The translations under genes and the position numbers were made by a program. 33,699 bases of DNA from Burkholderiales bacterium (GTDB taxonomy: Bacteria; Pseudomonadota; Gammaproteobacteria; Burkholderiales; Casimicrobiaceae), in assembly GCA_014378555.1 (NCBI GenBank), contig JACMNN010000007.1, forward strand, positions 1 to 33,699, written 5' to 3'. The stretch's first letter is position 1, and each line of letters starts with the position of its first letter. Positions 8 through 23,158 of the stretch are shown piece by piece. The notes beneath the pieces are model-generated. The model was given only the letters and a program-made list of their open reading frames with translations, ran no database searches and had not been told where the DNA came from.

Positions 8-1978
8 TCACGCTGCGCTCGGCCGCTGCTGGCGCTGGTAGTTAAACGGCCCGCCGGTAAACGGGGCGAAACCGCAGCCGAAGATCGCGCCTGCGTCGGC
101 AAGATCGCTGTCGGTAACGACGCCTTCAGCCAATGCAAGGTTGGCCTCGTTGAGCATTGGCGTGATCAGGCGCTCAGTGAGACCCGCAGGCACTGCACCC
201 GCTACGCCTTTCTGTGGTTTGCCATCGATCCAGACGTAGAAACCTTTGCCGGTCTTTTTGCCGAGTTCTTTGGCGTCGAGCTTCGTCGCTAGTTTCTTCG
301 GCGCATTTGCGAGCGCCGCTTCGCCACCGACCACTTGGCCCACCGCCGCGCAAACATCGAGCCCAACGACGTCGGCGAGTTCGACCGGTCCCATGGGCAT
401 GCCGAATGCGAGCGCGGCCTCATCGAGCGTTTCCGGCGTGATACCTTCATCAAGGCAACGCATCGCTTCGGTGAGATACGGCGCCAGGATACGGTTGACC
501 CAGAAGCCAGGCGCGCTTTTGCAGGCGAGTGGCAGTTTGTCGATCTGGTCGACAAATGCCGTTGCTTTGCGTGCGATTTCGGCATCCGTTTGTGCGCCGC
601 TGATGATCTCGACCAGCATCATCTGCGCGACCGGATTGAAGAAGTGAATGCCGACCAGCCTTGTTGGATCTTTCAACGCCGTGGCGATCTGTTCGAGCGG
701 GATGCTGGACGTGTTGGTTGCCAGCACAGCACCGGGCTTTGCTTTCGCCTCAAGCTCAGCGAAAACCTTTTGCTTGACGGAAAGATTTTCGACAATGGCT
801 TCGATGATCACGTCTGCGGTCTTCGCGCCGTCACCGGTGGTGTCCGGTTGCAGGCGGTCCATCGCGCCGCGGATACGGCGCTCGTCGCGCAGACGCTTTT
901 TGAACAGGTCAGCGGCGCGCTTGATGGCGGGCGCAATTTTCGATGCATCGAGATCCTGCAAGGTGACGGTGATGCCGCGCAGCGCGCACCAAGCCGCAAT
1001 GTCTCCACCCATCACGCCCGCGCCGACGATGTGAACGTGCTTCGCCTGGAAGTCGATGCCCTTGGCTTGCGCCTTCAGCTTTTCGCGCAGGCCGAATACG
1101 CGGATGAGGTTTTTGGCGGTTGAATGCGAAAGCAGCGCTTGCATCGAACACGATTCAGTCGCGCTAGGAAGGTGAACATCACCGTTGTACTTTTGCCAGA
1201 GGTCGATGATCGCGTACGGTGCCGGATAGTGCTCTGGACGCGCTCGTTGTGCGACCTGCTTTCGCGCTTGCGACGCGACGTAGCCGCGCAGTAAACCATC
1301 GGTCATGAGGCGCTGCACGAATGACAATTTGCGCGGCGCGGGCAGCGCTTTGAGCACGCCAATCGCGGTGTTCCACATGATGCGCGGCGGCACGGCTTCA
1401 TCAACCAGGCCGAGTTTCTTTGCCCGTTTCGCGTCCACTGTTTTGCCGGTGAGCATCAGGTCAAAGGCAGCAGGCGCGCCGAGCAGTTGCGGCAAACGTT
1501 TGACGCCACCCCACGCCGGCAAAATGCCGAGCATGACCTCAGGCAGGCCCATGCGCGTGCCGGGCTCGTCCACCGCGACACGGTAGCGGCAGGCCATGGC
1601 GAGCTCCAGCCCGCCGCCCATGCAGAAGCCTTTAATGAGCGCCAGCGTCGGATACTTCACGGCGGCAAGACGCTCGTAGAGGTCGTAGCCCGTTTTGATA
1701 AGTTTTTCGGCGGCGGCGACGTCATCGGTTTTGCCGATCGCCTCGAATTCCTGAATGTTCGCACCCGCAATAAAGCCGGAGGACTTCAGCGAGTGGAACA
1801 CCACCGCGATGGGCGGCGCCTGATCGAATTGATCGAGCAGCGCGGCGAACTCAGCAAGCACTGGCGTGCCCATGGTGTTGACGTTGCCACCCGCGACATC
1901 AATGCCGACCCAAGTGATGCCGTTTTCATCAGTTTTTAGTTTGAAATTTTCGTAGTTCATAACTCGCCAAGCTCGCAT
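8..1978 (-). CDS. fadB: 3-hydroxyacyl-CoA dehydrogenase / enoyl-CoA hydratase (FadB-type alpha subunit)
   Basis: Bifunctional beta-oxidation enzyme that hydrates enoyl-CoA and oxidises 3-hydroxyacyl-CoA with NAD. Numbering from the second Met (position 1960), the N-terminal crotonase domain spans about residues 1-190, with an oxyanion-hole segment SGFIAGANI and two acidic residues, E119 (GGGLEL) and E141 (PEVMLG), matching the catalytic pair of E. coli FadB. The NAD-binding dehydrogenase domain begins at GAGVMG (313-318) and carries the catalytic-type His439 in GIHFFNP. Two C-terminal 3HCDH helical domains follow. At about 650 residues it is somewhat shorter than E. coli FadB. Two starts are possible. 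ATG at 1978 has a GAGAGGG ribosome-binding site 8 nt upstream, supplied by a repeat arm. ATG at 1960 (MNYENF) fits the usual family N-terminus but has a poor site. It is the last visible gene of a regulator-thiolase-fadB operon. Substrate chain length cannot be told. Confidence 0.93.
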   Translation of the reverse strand: MRAWRVMNYENFKLKTDENGITWVGIDVAGGNVNTMGTPVLAEFAALLDQFDQAPPIAVVFHSLKSSGFIAGANIQEFEAIGKTDDVAAAEKLIKTGYDLYERLAAVKYPTLALIKGFCMGGGLELAMACRYRVAVDEPGTRMGLPEVMLGILPAWGGVKRLPQLLGAPAAFDLMLTGKTVDAKRAKKLGLVDEAVPPRIMWNTAIGVLKALPAPRKLSFVQRLMTDGLLRGYVASQARKQVAQRARPEHYPAPYAIIDLWQKYNGDVHLPSATESCSMQALLSHSTAKNLIRVFGLREKLKAQAKGIDFQAKHVHIVGAGVMGGDIAAWCALRGITVTLQDLDASKIAPAIKRAADLFKKRLRDERRIRGAMDRLQPDTTGDGAKTADVIIEAIVENLSVKQKVFAELEAKAKPGAVLATNTSSIPLEQIATALKDPTRLVGIHFFNPVAQMMLVEIISGAQTDAEIARKATAFVDQIDKLPLACKSAPGFWVNRILAPYLTEAMRCLDEGITPETLDEAALAFGMPMGPVELADVVGLDVCAAVGQVVGGEAALANAPKKLATKLDAKELGKKTGKGFYVWIDGKPQKGVAGAVPAGLTERLITPMLNEANLALAEGVVTDSDLADAGAIFGCGFAPFTGGPFNYQRQQRPSAA

Positions 1979-1986
1979 TTTGAAAT

Positions 1987-2113
1987 CCCTCTCCCGCCGC
2001 GCGGGAGAGGGTGCCCGACAGGGCGGGTGAGGGCGGTAACTGCCTCGTCACTGTGAAAGAAGAAATAATGCAATCGCCCTCACCCTAGCCCTCTCCCGCG
2101 CCGCGGGAGAGGG
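1987..2113. repeat. Paired palindromic (REP/BIME-like) element, copy 1
   Basis: This element has long imperfect terminal inverted repeats. The left end is a perfect 11-bp hairpin, CCCTCTCCCGC / GCGGGAGAGGG, at 1987-2011 with a 3-nt loop, followed by GGGTGAGGGCG. The right end has the complementary CGCCCTCACCC and a second CCCTCTCCC / GGGAGAGGG hairpin at about 2089-2113. The core between the arms is AT-richer. The arrangement is typical of paired REP elements common in proteobacterial intergenic DNA. It lies between thiolase and fadB in the same transcript, so it could affect RNA stability. Its leftmost arm supplies the ribosome-binding sequence of fadB on the minus strand. Confidence 0.85.
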
Positions 2114-2115
2114 GA

Positions 2116-2220
2116 CTAAGCCGCTTCCACCAGTGTGGCTCCGCCCCGTCCGCCACCGATGCAAATTTCATTAGTTTTTAGTTTGAAATTTTCGTAGTTC
2201 ATAACTCGCCAAGCTCGCAT
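2116..2220 (-). other. 34-codon chimeric ORF: fadB 5' end fused to thiolase 3' end
   Basis: Reading the minus strand from ATG at 2220 gives MRAWRVMNYENFKLKT, identical to the first 16 residues encoded at fadB (start 1978). It then continues in frame into NEICIGGGRGGATLVEAA and a TAG stop. The second half matches the thiolase C-terminus (ICIGGGQGGAMLVEAA). It keeps the same GAGAGGG-type ribosome-binding site as fadB. The structure is what the joint of a tandem duplication would leave. Whether the peptide is made is unknown. It could be a neutral relic or a short upstream ORF affecting fadB translation. Confidence 0.75.
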
Positions 2221-2228
2221 TTTGAAAT

Positions 2229-2333
2229 CCCTCTCCCGCAGCGCGGGTGAGGGCGGTCACTGCCTCGTTATTGTGAAAGAAGAAATAATTTAATCGCCCT
2301 CACCCTAGCCCTCTCCCGCGCTGCGGGAAAGGG
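2229..2333. repeat. Paired palindromic (REP/BIME-like) element, copy 2, with 22-nt deletion
   Basis: Second copy of the element at 1987-2113. The spacing between copies is 242 nt on the fadB-proximal side and 220 nt on the thiolase side, so this copy lacks 22 nt from its left half. The deletion still leaves a foldable hairpin, CCCTCTCCCGC paired with GCGGGTGAGGG (one mismatch). The right half again carries CGCCCTCACCC and a CCCTCTCCC hairpin. It begins just before the thiolase stop codon and may act as a 3' stem-loop of the thiolase message. Confidence 0.8.
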
Positions 2334-2335
2334 GA

Positions 2336-3634
2336 TTAAGCCGCTTCCACCAACATCGCTCCGCCCTGTCCGCCACCAATGCAGATCGTCGCCAGCGCAC
2401 GTTTGCCACCGGTGCGCTTGAGCACATTGAGCGCGTGCAACACAATCCGCGCGCCGGATGCGCCGACTGGGTGACCTAGCGCCACCGCACCGCCATCGAC
2501 GTTCAATTTGTTCATGTCAATCGAGCCCATTGCGCCATCCAGACCCAGCTCTTCTTTGCAAAATTTTTCGTCTTCCCATGCGCGCTTGCAGCCGAGTACC
2601 TGAGCGGCAAAAGCTTCGTTGATTTCGATGTTGTCGAGATCGTTGAGCGTGAGGCCGTTGCGCTTCAGGATGGGTGTCGATGCGTAGACCGGCCCAAGGC
2701 CCATCTGCGCCGGATCGCAGCCCGCCCATTGGGTGTCGACGATTTTGCCGAGCACCGGCAAGTTGTGTTTGGCGACTGCAGCCTGTGTGGCCAGCATCAG
2801 CCACACGCCACCGTCGGTGATTTGTGAGCTATTGCCCGCGGTGACGTTGCCGTATTTCTTATCAAAAAAAGGCCTCAGTTTTGCGAGCTTGTCTGGCGTG
2901 GAGTCGCTGCGCGCGCCGTCGTCATCGGGGTAGACCTTGCCCTTGCCGTCGATCAGCGGAATCACCTCATTCTTGAGCGTTCCGGCAGCCTGAGCGGCGA
3001 GCACACGCCGGTGGCTTTCGGCGGCATACGCGTCCATCTCGGTGCGCGTAATGCCGAAGCGGTACGCAATATTTTCAGCGGTTTGCCCCATGAGCAAACC
3101 GACCTTCGGATCGGTGAGGCCCTTCATCAACGCAATCACGGGCGACAGCATCGCCGACGGCGAAAGCTTGGCGAACACGCCCACGCGCTGGCCCATCGTC
3201 TTTGCGCCCGCAAGGGCCGCGAACCACAACACCATCTTTTCGTTGTAGAGCAGCGGCGCGCGCGACAGCGCATCAACGCCACCGGCAAGCACCAGCTCAG
3301 AGCGTCCAGCGAGCATGTTGTTGATTGCAGAATCGAGCGCTTGCATGCCGCTGGCGCAGTTGCGCATCACCGTCCAGCCGGTGACCTTATCGCCACAACC
3401 GAGACGCATGGCAACGTAGCGCCCGATGTTCACCTCATCGGGCGAAGGATTCGCACAACCGAGGATGACCTCATCGATTTGCGTCGGGTCAATCGGCAGG
3501 CGAGACAACAATGCGCGACCCGCTGCAACCGACAGATCGGACGCAGAAAACGGGCCGGGTGCATTGCGCGCTTTGAGAAACGGTGTGCGGGCCCCGTCGA
3601 CAACGTAGATAGGGGCGCGAAGGGCTGATGCCAT
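2336..3634 (-). CDS. Acetyl-CoA C-acyltransferase (thiolase, FadA/FadI-type beta subunit)
   Basis: Catalyses thiolytic cleavage of 3-ketoacyl-CoA in the last step of beta-oxidation, or the reverse condensation. The 432-residue length is closer to FadI-type thiolases (about 436) than to FadA (about 390). The nucleophilic cysteine is Cys93 in MRNCASGMQ. The NEAFAAQ motif, the GGAVALGHPVGASGAR motif carrying the catalytic His, and the C-terminal CIGGGQGGAM motif with the acid-base Cys are all present. ATG at 3634 is preceded by a modest AAAGG site. It lies 32 bp after the TetR-type regulator and upstream of fadB on the same strand. This gives regulator-thiolase-fadB, the reverse of the E. coli fadBA order. 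The last 18 codons have a diverged copy downstream at 2116-2173. I do not choose between fadA and fadI as a symbol. Confidence 0.92.
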   Translation of the reverse strand: MASALRAPIYVVDGARTPFLKARNAPGPFSASDLSVAAGRALLSRLPIDPTQIDEVILGCANPSPDEVNIGRYVAMRLGCGDKVTGWTVMRNCASGMQALDSAINNMLAGRSELVLAGGVDALSRAPLLYNEKMVLWFAALAGAKTMGQRVGVFAKLSPSAMLSPVIALMKGLTDPKVGLLMGQTAENIAYRFGITRTEMDAYAAESHRRVLAAQAAGTLKNEVIPLIDGKGKVYPDDDGARSDSTPDKLAKLRPFFDKKYGNVTAGNSSQITDGGVWLMLATQAAVAKHNLPVLGKIVDTQWAGCDPAQMGLGPVYASTPILKRNGLTLNDLDNIEINEAFAAQVLGCKRAWEDEKFCKEELGLDGAMGSIDMNKLNVDGGAVALGHPVGASGARIVLHALNVLKRTGGKRALATICIGGGQGGAMLVEAA

Positions 3635-20374: not shown

Positions 20375-20449
20375 CGCATTATTTTCCGCGACGCGCCGGT
20401 TGCGTGCCATAGGCTAGGCAAAAACGGCATACCCGCCGAAAAAAATCAT

Positions 20450-20600
20450 AATGTCCGAGAACGTTTAGCGAGGCGCCGTCAGAAAAGCTGAGGTCATGGT
20501 TCTCGACACCAATGCCGCCATCAAGCCATGAGAGCGCACGAGCACGTTAATTTCAGCGCTGCAGCCGAGGCAGTTGGATTTCGTCCGTGATTGCGTTGCG
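20450..20600 (+). pseudogene. Decayed remnant of the 5' end of ada
   Basis: This matches the beginning of the intact ada gene at 21692 and its leader. The shared ATGTCCGA-AACG lies upstream, then GGTCATG followed by a near copy of codons 1-16, and after an internal loss of about 90 bp a copy of codons 53-68. Damage is visible. A one-base loss after codon 7 shifts the frame. The later segment, in frame from 20555, reads SAAAEAVGFRP-stop-LRC, so TGA replaces the codon of the metal-binding Cys65. The order remnant, vapBC, intact ada suggests duplication or insertion. No function is expected, unless the copied leader still serves as a promoter. Confidence 0.8.
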
Positions 20601-21361: not shown

Positions 21362-21691
21362 TTGGCCTTGGCGCTCGTGGCGTGTTTGAAGTTGGCATCA
21401 TCATTGAACGCGAAGCGCCGTTAAGGTGAACTCGGGCCCGTCGAGCAGGTATGTCGAACTGCGTATTTATGGATCATTAGCCGCATGACTCGACATGAAA
21501 ATTTGTTAAATTTTCTATAATTAAATGCCGTTCATACCCACGAGCGCGTGATGTGTCTTCTGCTGCAGCTACCTATCTTTTAATGGTCACAACATCACAG
21601 AACGTGTCATCCGTGGGCAATTTCAAAAAAGCAAAATGATGATGTCCGAAAACGGCTAATAAGGCACGCGGCGCGCAGATAAACTGCGGTC
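21362..21691. other. 330-bp leader/intergenic region before ada
   Basis: No protein gene of normal size is visible. The region contains a promoter-like array with an inverted repeat (21490-21521), then about 165 bp to the ada start. Within that leader are very short ORFs, for example MCLLLQLPIF from ATG 21551 and MMMSENG just before ada. These have no clear significance. The last 40 bp resemble the sequence before the ada remnant at 20450. Confidence 0.5.
21490..21521 (+). promoter_or_regulatory. Candidate long-spacer promoter with internal inverted repeat
   Basis: TCGACA (21490-21495, five of six to the -35 consensus) and TATAAT (21516-21521) are 20 nt apart. The spacer is almost entirely filled by a perfect inverted repeat, GAAAATTT-GTT-AAATTTTC (21497-21515). 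A palindrome in an over-long spacer is the geometry of MerR-family controlled promoters. The nearest downstream gene on this strand is ada. Confidence 0.45.
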
Positions 21692-23158
21692 ATGTATCTC
21701 GACACCACTGCCTGTTATCAAGCCATGAAAGCGCACGACACGCGCTTTGATGGACGCTTTTTTGTGGGCGTTTCGTCGACCCATATTTATTGCCGGCCGA
21801 TTTGTCGGGTGCGCTTGCCGCAGCAGAAGAATTGCACGTTTCATCCCAGCGCTGCAGCGGCGGAGGCGGCCGGGTTTCGTCCGTGTTTGCGCTGTCGTCC
21901 GGAGCTGGCTCCCGGCTTTGCCGCGACCGAGGCGAGCGCGAAGCTGGCGCGCATCGCGGCCCGCATGATTGAGGATGGCGTTGCCAACGATTTGGATTTG
22001 CCGCTGGTGGCGCAAAAAATCGGCGTAACCGATCGTCACTTGCGACGCATTTTTTCCGAGGAGTTCGGCGTGTCGCCGGTGCAGTTCGCACAGACGCACC
22101 GCTTGCTTTTGGCGAAGCGATTGTTGACCGACACCGCGCTGCCGGTGGCGGAGGTCGCGTTTGCAAGCGGCTTCTCCAGCGTGCGGCGAATGAACACGTT
22201 ATTTGCTGAGCGCTACGGTTTCAGCCCGACGCGGCTGCGTAAAGAGGGCAAAGAGAATGACGCGCCCGATCAGACGGACGCGTTGACGTTTGTGCTGCCG
22301 TATCGACCGCCGTACGACTGGCAGCGGCTGTTGGCGTTTTTTGAGATGCGGGCGATTCCGGGGGTAGAGTCGGTGGCCGAACGCGCGTATCGGCGGGTGA
22401 TTCGCGTGGACGGCGCGACAAGCAGTGCAAAGGCGGACTGGCTCGAGGTCAGCCACCTGTCAAAACGTAACGCGCTGCAATTGCGCTTTTCATCGAAGCT
22501 CGCGAGTTCGACGCAGTCGCTGCTGTCGCGCACCAAGCAGGTGTTTGATGTGGCGGCTGATCCGCAGGAAATTGCGCTGGCGCTCGGAGATCTTGCCGCT
22601 GACGCGCACGGATTGCGCTTGCCGGGGGCGTTTGATGGATTCGAGCTGGCGATGCGGGCGATTCTTGGCCAGCAGGTGACGGTGAAGGCAGCACGCACCT
22701 TGGCGACGCGCTTTGTCGATGCGTTCGGGGAGCCGCTGTCGACGCCGTTTGCGGAATTAACGCGAGCCTTTCCGTTGGCCGCGAAAGTGGCGCAACTGAC
22801 CCGCGACGACATTGCTCGGCTGGGGATTGTTGGGGCGCGGGCTGAGGCGATGATTGCCATTGCGCAGGCAGTTGACTCGAAGGCGCTGGTGCTCAACGGT
22901 GGCGCTGAGCCGATGCAAGCGATAGCGTTGCTGCGAGCGATCAAAGGTATCGGCCCGTGGACCGCCCACTACATCGCAATGCGCGCACTCGCGTGGCCCG
23001 ACGCGTGGCCGCCACAAGACGTGGCGTTGTTGAACGCAATGCAACTGCCGAACACGGCAAAGGGCCAGCGCGAGGCCGACGTAATTGCCGAGGCGTGGCG
23101 ACCATGGCGCAGCTACGCGGTGTTGCATACGTGGAGAAAATTGGAGAAACCAACATGA
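21692..23158 (+). CDS. Ada N-terminal domain / AraC helix-turn-helix / AlkA DNA-3-methyladenine glycosylase fusion
   Basis: Combines alkylation sensing and base-excision repair in one 488-residue protein. Residues 1-75 form the Ada metal-binding domain, with Cys34, Cys38, Cys65 and Cys68 (YCRPICR, CLRC). They correspond to E. coli Ada Cys38/42/69/72, where the first accepts methyl from phosphotriesters. Residues about 85-185 are an AraC-type DNA-binding domain (DLPLVAQKIGVTDRHLRRIF and FASGFSSVRRMNTLF). The rest is AlkA: an N-terminal domain (PYRPPYDWQRLLAFF), then HhH-GPD with IKGIGPWTAHYIAM and the catalytic Asp, probably Asp443 in WPPQDVALL. The O6-methyltransferase half of classical Ada is absent and encoded by the next gene, which overlaps by 4 bp. 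Auto-induction by alkylation damage is expected from the family. Confidence 0.93.
   Translation: MYLDTTACYQAMKAHDTRFDGRFFVGVSSTHIYCRPICRVRLPQQKNCTFHPSAAAAEAAGFRPCLRCRPELAPGFAATEASAKLARIAARMIEDGVANDLDLPLVAQKIGVTDRHLRRIFSEEFGVSPVQFAQTHRLLLAKRLLTDTALPVAEVAFASGFSSVRRMNTLFAERYGFSPTRLRKEGKENDAPDQTDALTFVLPYRPPYDWQRLLAFFEMRAIPGVESVAERAYRRVIRVDGATSSAKADWLEVSHLSKRNALQLRFSSKLASSTQSLLSRTKQVFDVAADPQEIALALGDLAADAHGLRLPGAFDGFELAMRAILGQQVTVKAARTLATRFVDAFGEPLSTPFAELTRAFPLAAKVAQLTRDDIARLGIVGARAEAMIAIAQAVDSKALVLNGGAEPMQAIALLRAIKGIGPWTAHYIAMRALAWPDAWPPQDVALLNAMQLPNTAKGQREADVIAEAWRPWRSYAVLHTWRKLEKPT

Follow-up and report, generated by a model that had tools for sequence, protein, structure and literature searches.

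Tandem duplication of a REPIN-like element together with both flanking gene ends between a thiolase gene and fadB in a Burkholderiales genome

The window analysed here is a stretch of 33,699 nucleotides (nt), contig JACMNN010000007.1 (C176), from the genome of a Burkholderiales bacterium of the Casimicrobiaceae (assembly GCA_014378555.1; 3.55 Mb in 274 contigs, 87% complete). Its minus strand carries a thiolase gene and, downstream of it, a fadB-like gene coding for an enoyl-CoA hydratase/3-hydroxyacyl-CoA dehydrogenase, both of them genes of fat breakdown. Between the two lies a pair of inverted hairpins with CCCTCACCCTARCCCTCTCCCGC-type tails, belonging to a family of repetitive extragenic palindromic (REP) sequences and arranged as in REP doublets forming hairpins (REPINs). 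The pair is present twice, each time together with an end of either gene, and the junction of the two copies creates a short chimeric open reading frame (ORF), here called the micro-ORF.

Anatomy of the duplicated region

Positions 1924-2385 consist of two head-to-tail copies of a unit composed of a thiolase 3' end, an inverted REP hairpin pair and a fadB 5' end. A repeat search identified two families of direct repeats, 1916-2011 versus 2158-2253 (96 nt, 94% identity, offset 242) and 2019-2166 versus 2239-2386 (148 nt, 89% identity, offset 220); the self-match spans 251 columns and is far above chance. When the copies are aligned, a single 22-nt gap, corresponding to bases missing from copy 1, is found, and 17 of the 216 gap-free columns differ. 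The initial annotation of this DNA had proposed a tandem duplication with an in-frame fusion, the copies being offset by 242 nt and then, past a 22-nt deletion, by 220 nt: repeat search, alignment and reading frame bear this out, and the duplication is confirmed. The differences are unevenly spread, as had also been noticed, the fadB side being nearly identical (1 of 58 columns, 5' untranslated region included) and the thiolase side diverged (8 of 51); the REP pair has 8 differences in 107 columns. The longer form of the REP pair, present in copy 2, is also found in the REP pairs of L129-L132, and copy 2 is therefore taken as the fuller one.

On the thiolase side the copied gene end amounts to 50 nt (3' end); on the fadB side (5' end) it measures 55 nt from ATG 1978, or 37 nt from ATG 1960. 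Following the mRNA strand, the thiolase TAA (2338-2336) precedes a REP (2333-2309), a spacer, a second REP (2253-2229), ATG 2220, ATG 2202 and the junction (2166/2165). The latter is followed by a TAG (2118-2116), a REP (2113-2089), a spacer, another REP (2011-1987), ATG 1978, ATG 1960 and fadB. About one nt at the junction is common to both parents, as judged by eye, which gives it the appearance of an illegitimate join. The frame that crosses it translates to MRAWRVMNYENFKLKTNEICIGGGRGGATLVEAA*. All features are reported in Table 1.

Table 1. Features of the thiolase-fadB region (positions in the window; copies are numbered from the thiolase side)
Feature	Positions	Strand	Basis
Thiolase, 432 amino acids, upstream gene; last 50 nt (2336-2385) duplicated	2336..3634	-	Pfam Thiolase_N, Thiolase_C
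fadB-like enoyl-CoA hydratase/3-hydroxyacyl-CoA dehydrogenase; the longest reading frame starts at ATG 1978, the position conserved in congeners is ATG 1960	8..1978	-	Pfam 3HCDH_N, 3HCDH, ECH_1
Copy 1, next to the thiolase: authentic thiolase 3' end, REP pair lacking 22 nt, copied fadB 5' end	2166..2385	-	
Copy 2, next to fadB: copied thiolase 3' end, complete REP pair, authentic fadB 5' end	1924..2165	-	
Novel junction, fadB codons/thiolase codons	2165..2166	.	Read from sequence and alignments
Chimeric micro-ORF, 34 codons and stop (28 from ATG 2202)	2116..2220	-	
REP hairpin, copy 1, thiolase side, 2 nt past the thiolase stop	2309..2333	.	
REP hairpin, copy 1, fadB side; mRNA 3' arm GAGAGGG is a Shine-Dalgarno-like site before ATG 2220	2229..2253	.	
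REP hairpin, copy 2, thiolase side, 2 nt past the micro-ORF stop	2089..2113	.	
REP hairpin, copy 2, fadB side; mRNA 3' arm is a Shine-Dalgarno-like site before ATG 1978	1987..2011	.	

The locus was compared with its counterparts in related genomes, as the initial annotation had proposed. The set included 17 genomes of the genus, the source genome among them, and the thiolase-fadB locus was compared in 14 of the 16 congeners, G003 and G012 being left out as neither gave a thiolase match. None of the 14 loci carries the duplication. The whole 86-nt junction is matched, within the 17 genomes, in the window only; G005, G004 and G001 match only parts of it, at ordinary gene ends. A GGA codon is common to the junction copy and to the adjacent thiolase and occurs in none of the 14 congeners, which indicates that the copy of the thiolase end was made in the source lineage. 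At two positions invariant in all 14 congeners, the junction copy has Arg in place of Gln and Thr in place of Met. The stop codon is TAG at the junction and TAA in the real thiolase; the congeners use TAG (11 of 14) or TGA (3 of 14), never TAA. Judging from these codons, the thiolase half of the junction behaves as a local copy that is losing constraint, as in decaying DNA.

The REPIN-like element and other REP-bearing duplications

The palindromic repeat pair had been recognized by the initial annotation, and is indeed present, but its genome-wide REPIN-like nature and the REP-bearing duplications found elsewhere had been missed. Searching the genome with the region returned at least 80 match rows, some of them overlapping, 3 of which fall in the window (40 of 64 first-look candidates were scored). 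The exact REP tail has 23 matches in the genome, 2 of them in the window, versus none for the reversed control, and is present in 13 of the 17 genus genomes, including the source. The element is thus a high-copy palindrome, as in REPINs, with dozens of sites in the genome. Its REPs are inverted at similar spacing (arms 1987-2011/2089-2113 and 2229-2254/2308-2333 in the window), and alignable pairs, 70-82% identical, are found in L129, L130, L131, L132, L133, L144 and L146. Both focal pairs are intergenic. The window has no Rfam match at gathering scores.

At the thiolase-fadB site, a REP pair is found in 8 of the 14 congeners (L011, L013, L014, L015, L018, L019, L079, L096), and in 6 there is none (L012, L016, L017, L020, L104, L113). 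In L018 and L079 the longer half of the pair is the one nearer the thiolase, the reverse of the arrangement in the window. The pairs of the eight congeners differ in sequence, as if the site had been refilled, or the repeat rewritten, clade by clade. In L012 and L016 a different element, common to the two (GCGCGGGCGCATTGCTTCGTTGGCG...), is found past the thiolase stop, in the same intergenic place.

The occurrence of tandem duplications was evaluated in an unselected sample of 40 contig starts, about every seventh contig, for a total of 440,908 bases, REP content not being a criterion; REP families were defined on the source genome (G000). Tandem duplications were identified at 16 loci. REP hairpins are present at 10 of them, each with at least one of four families other than the focal one; 8 of these 10 are near-contiguous. 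Random placement (5000 placements) gave a mean of 1.45 REP-bearing loci and a maximum of 6, in a permutation that is partly circular, as two nearby REPINs on the same strand score as a tandem duplication. A targeted sample comprised 20 stretches picked because of a match to the focal REP; tandem duplications of at least 60 nt are present in 3 of them. Two of them carry the focal family: L132 (3 x 170 nt), with the 3' end (42 nt) of a mechanically called ORF within the unit, and L139 (2 x 271 nt), with the 5' end (111 nt) of another. The third, L136, is a duplication of about 190 nt with a REP of a non-focal family. REP-bearing tandem duplications form a class in this genome, to which the focal one belongs. 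Among the 12 duplication loci inspected, the focal site is the only one with two copied gene ends backed by Pfam.

Tandem arrays of 3-4 REP-bearing units, formed by other REP families, were observed at L168:5572-6229, L187:1-579 and L151:4098-4568; in the L168 array two REP families are found within one unit.

Start of fadB and the micro-ORF

In 13 of the 14 congeners (L096 and L113 were read by eye) the nearest in-frame fadB ATG falls at the position of ATG 1960. ATG 1978 was accordingly not retained as the fadB start, though it is matched in L104 (G016), where fadB starts six residues earlier and the two genes are 2 nt apart. The fusion ORF had been described as having 34 codons: the in-frame fusion holds, and its length is corrected to 28 or 34 codons, since the start position in 13 of the 14 congeners matches ATG 1960 and not ATG 1978.

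Shine-Dalgarno sites were scored as duplexes with the 16S rRNA end, the spacing of the best duplex being unrestricted. With this score, the REP arm preceding ATG 1978 and ATG 2220 reaches -8.7 kcal/mol, versus -5.6 (the strongest) to +0.5 kcal/mol at the fadB starts of 12 congeners and -2.9 kcal/mol at ATG 1960. Because its duplex exceeds all of these, the REP arm may act as a replacement ribosome-binding site in the source genome. The segment 1961-1978 (minus strand) thus offers an in-frame upstream fadB ATG with a REP-derived Shine-Dalgarno-like site, which would possibly add six residues to the protein. The micro-ORF may be translated too, as the REP arm preceding it makes a good Shine-Dalgarno-like site. 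Conservation of the small ORF is not seen at the 14 congeneric loci, where the duplication itself is lacking. The micro-ORF is unlikely to be a new gene: it is probably a by-product, and would have no function of its own.

Origin of the duplication and alternative explanations

The observed arrangement is probably the outcome of a tandem duplication of a REPIN-like element with both gene ends, with the micro-ORF as a by-product. The starting point would be one such element between thiolase and fadB. A stretch of about 242 bp, made up of the element and the two gene ends, would have been duplicated in tandem in one event, by illegitimate recombination or by replication slippage helped by the hairpins; either of them is made likely by the near absence of shared sequence at the junction. 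Homologous recombination between REPs is disfavoured, as it would place the ends of the duplication inside the REPs, and the actual ends lie 52 and 63 nt outside them, within the two coding sequences. Copy 1 would later have lost 22 nt within one REP. The chimeric micro-ORF would have arisen in frame by chance, its thiolase half drifting like unconstrained DNA.

Several observations weigh against this interpretation. The near-unchanged state of the fadB half is less well predicted by neutral decay alone. No REP-associated tyrosine transposase (RAYT) flanked by the focal REP was found in the 87%-complete genome, where both Y1_Tnp matches adjoin other repeats, and the element is for this reason classed as REPIN-like only. 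In the unselected sample, which contains 8 focal hairpins, none of the 10 REP-bearing duplication loci carries the focal family, so that a link specific to this family was dropped; the other duplications involving it are known from the targeted stretches only. To this the partial circularity of the permutation has to be added. At several loci the copied stretch ends within 20 nt of the REPs and at others it takes in more flank; a clear copied gene end is absent at most of the 12 loci inspected. Finally, duplication loci with these REPs are 0 of 5 in G004 (400,000 bases), 0 of 9 in G015 (312,597 bases) and 0 of 3 in G005 (135,801 bases), in a comparison that leans towards G000, on which the families were defined, and may miss the REP families proper to those genomes; several of the G015 contigs had been picked for a listed focal REP.

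The similarity of the two fadB ends led the initial annotation to suggest gene conversion, which would have homogenized this side of both copies. The thiolase and fadB parts do differ in their rate of change (Fisher p=0.012), and the longest identical run, 67 of 216 columns, is longer than expected by permutation (p=0.023), in tests picked after the pattern was seen; the Fisher value becomes 0.046 once the REP part is joined to the thiolase part. The same pattern would be expected if the fadB start were under selection, or if mutation were uneven. The pattern is therefore present and weakly suggests conversion without establishing it, and we consider such an event unlikely, if worth keeping in mind. 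For the differences on the thiolase side (8 of 51 columns), the initial annotation had suggested as an alternative that one end came from a paralogous locus; a thiolase acquired horizontally was considered along with it as a donor. A paralogue could be missing from a genome of this completeness, but the search for a second thiolase, also proposed by the initial annotation, yielded no close paralogue: at the protein level no other thiolase match of the genome exceeds 43% identity, and the GGA codon, found in no congener, is shared with the adjacent gene. This origin is not supported, and its probability is very low. The fragmentation of the assembly (274 contigs, 87% complete) could raise the suspicion of an artefact, but 17 column differences and the 22-nt gap separate the copies, the junction offers almost no shared sequence on which to mis-join, and other contigs also carry diverged tandem duplications; an artefact appears exceedingly improbable.

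A different proposal assigns the module a role in translation, as a relay in which a terminating ribosome would open the REP hairpin and uncover a hidden Shine-Dalgarno site, first for the micro-ORF and then for fadB. Both the thiolase stop and the micro-ORF stop are followed, after 2 nt, by a REP pair; the next site would be hidden by the 3' arm of that pair, and this arm forms the strongest of the duplexes compared above. According to the folding model, the site is fully paired in the free RNA (mean unpaired probability 0.00), and a ribosome-sized block past the upstream stop would raise this value to 0.65 for the micro-ORF and to 0.18 for fadB. Folding of the region is stronger than in 100 shuffles (z -8.3), as expected of any REP pair, and the 67-column identical run surrounds both starts. 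On the other hand, the effect predicted for fadB is small, the thiolase-derived residues drift, the argument depends on folding models and on unrestricted duplex spacing, and the module is confined to one genome, the congeners being without it. We regard the relay as improbable. It would be part of a more general scheme, in which REPINs are mobile translation-coupling modules: placed past a stop, their 3' arm would be a hidden Shine-Dalgarno site opened by the terminating ribosome, and tandem copying with gene ends would produce a relay micro-ORF in one step. This scheme is likewise doubtful.

Enterobacterial bacterial interspersed mosaic elements (BIMEs) and REP elements occur as inverted REP pairs between the cistrons of operons, often in clusters; the focal site resembles them in having an inverted REP pair between cistrons, and differs in sequence. 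A precedent is provided by Pseudomonas fluorescens SBW25, for which a 2011 report describes 16 tandemly repeated REPIN clusters, made of head-to-tail units of a flank, a REPIN and a shorter flank (PMC3116915). The kind of event is therefore already known. The focal site is similar in its head-to-tail REPIN-like units with flanks (71 nt and 53 nt), but its flanks are the coding ends of two genes, resulting in a chimeric ORF, its REP sequence and lineage are other, and no matching RAYT was found. A REP super-family without a dedicated transposase has been reported (PMC3733652), and a literature search found no paper on REPINs with RAYT in Betaproteobacteria. For the micro-ORF, a parallel is mgtQ of Salmonella, a small ORF between mgtC and mgtB that promotes translation of the next gene (PMC8092293). 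Both are intergenic small ORFs overlapping RNA structures, those of mgtQ controlling translation of the next gene; a difference from the focal micro-ORF is that mgtQ, as described there, needs ribosome-destabilising acidic residues.

With tandem REPIN clusters and their flanks already described, the finding alone changes little. It adds one from the Betaproteobacteria to the genomes with REP-bearing tandem duplications, and indicates that when a REP pair is copied in tandem both adjacent gene ends can be carried along, a single event then yielding a chimeric ORF ready for translation; new small ORFs could arise cheaply by this route. The focal duplication is real and largely explained, and the chimeric micro-ORF is an instructive by-product.

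Elsewhere in the window, a decayed copy (about 77% identical) of the 5' end of an Ada/AlkA gene was observed in two pieces, at 20442-20598 and 21633-21894. None of the five REP families is found there; the gene itself occupies 21692-23158, with the partial copy about 1.2 kb upstream.

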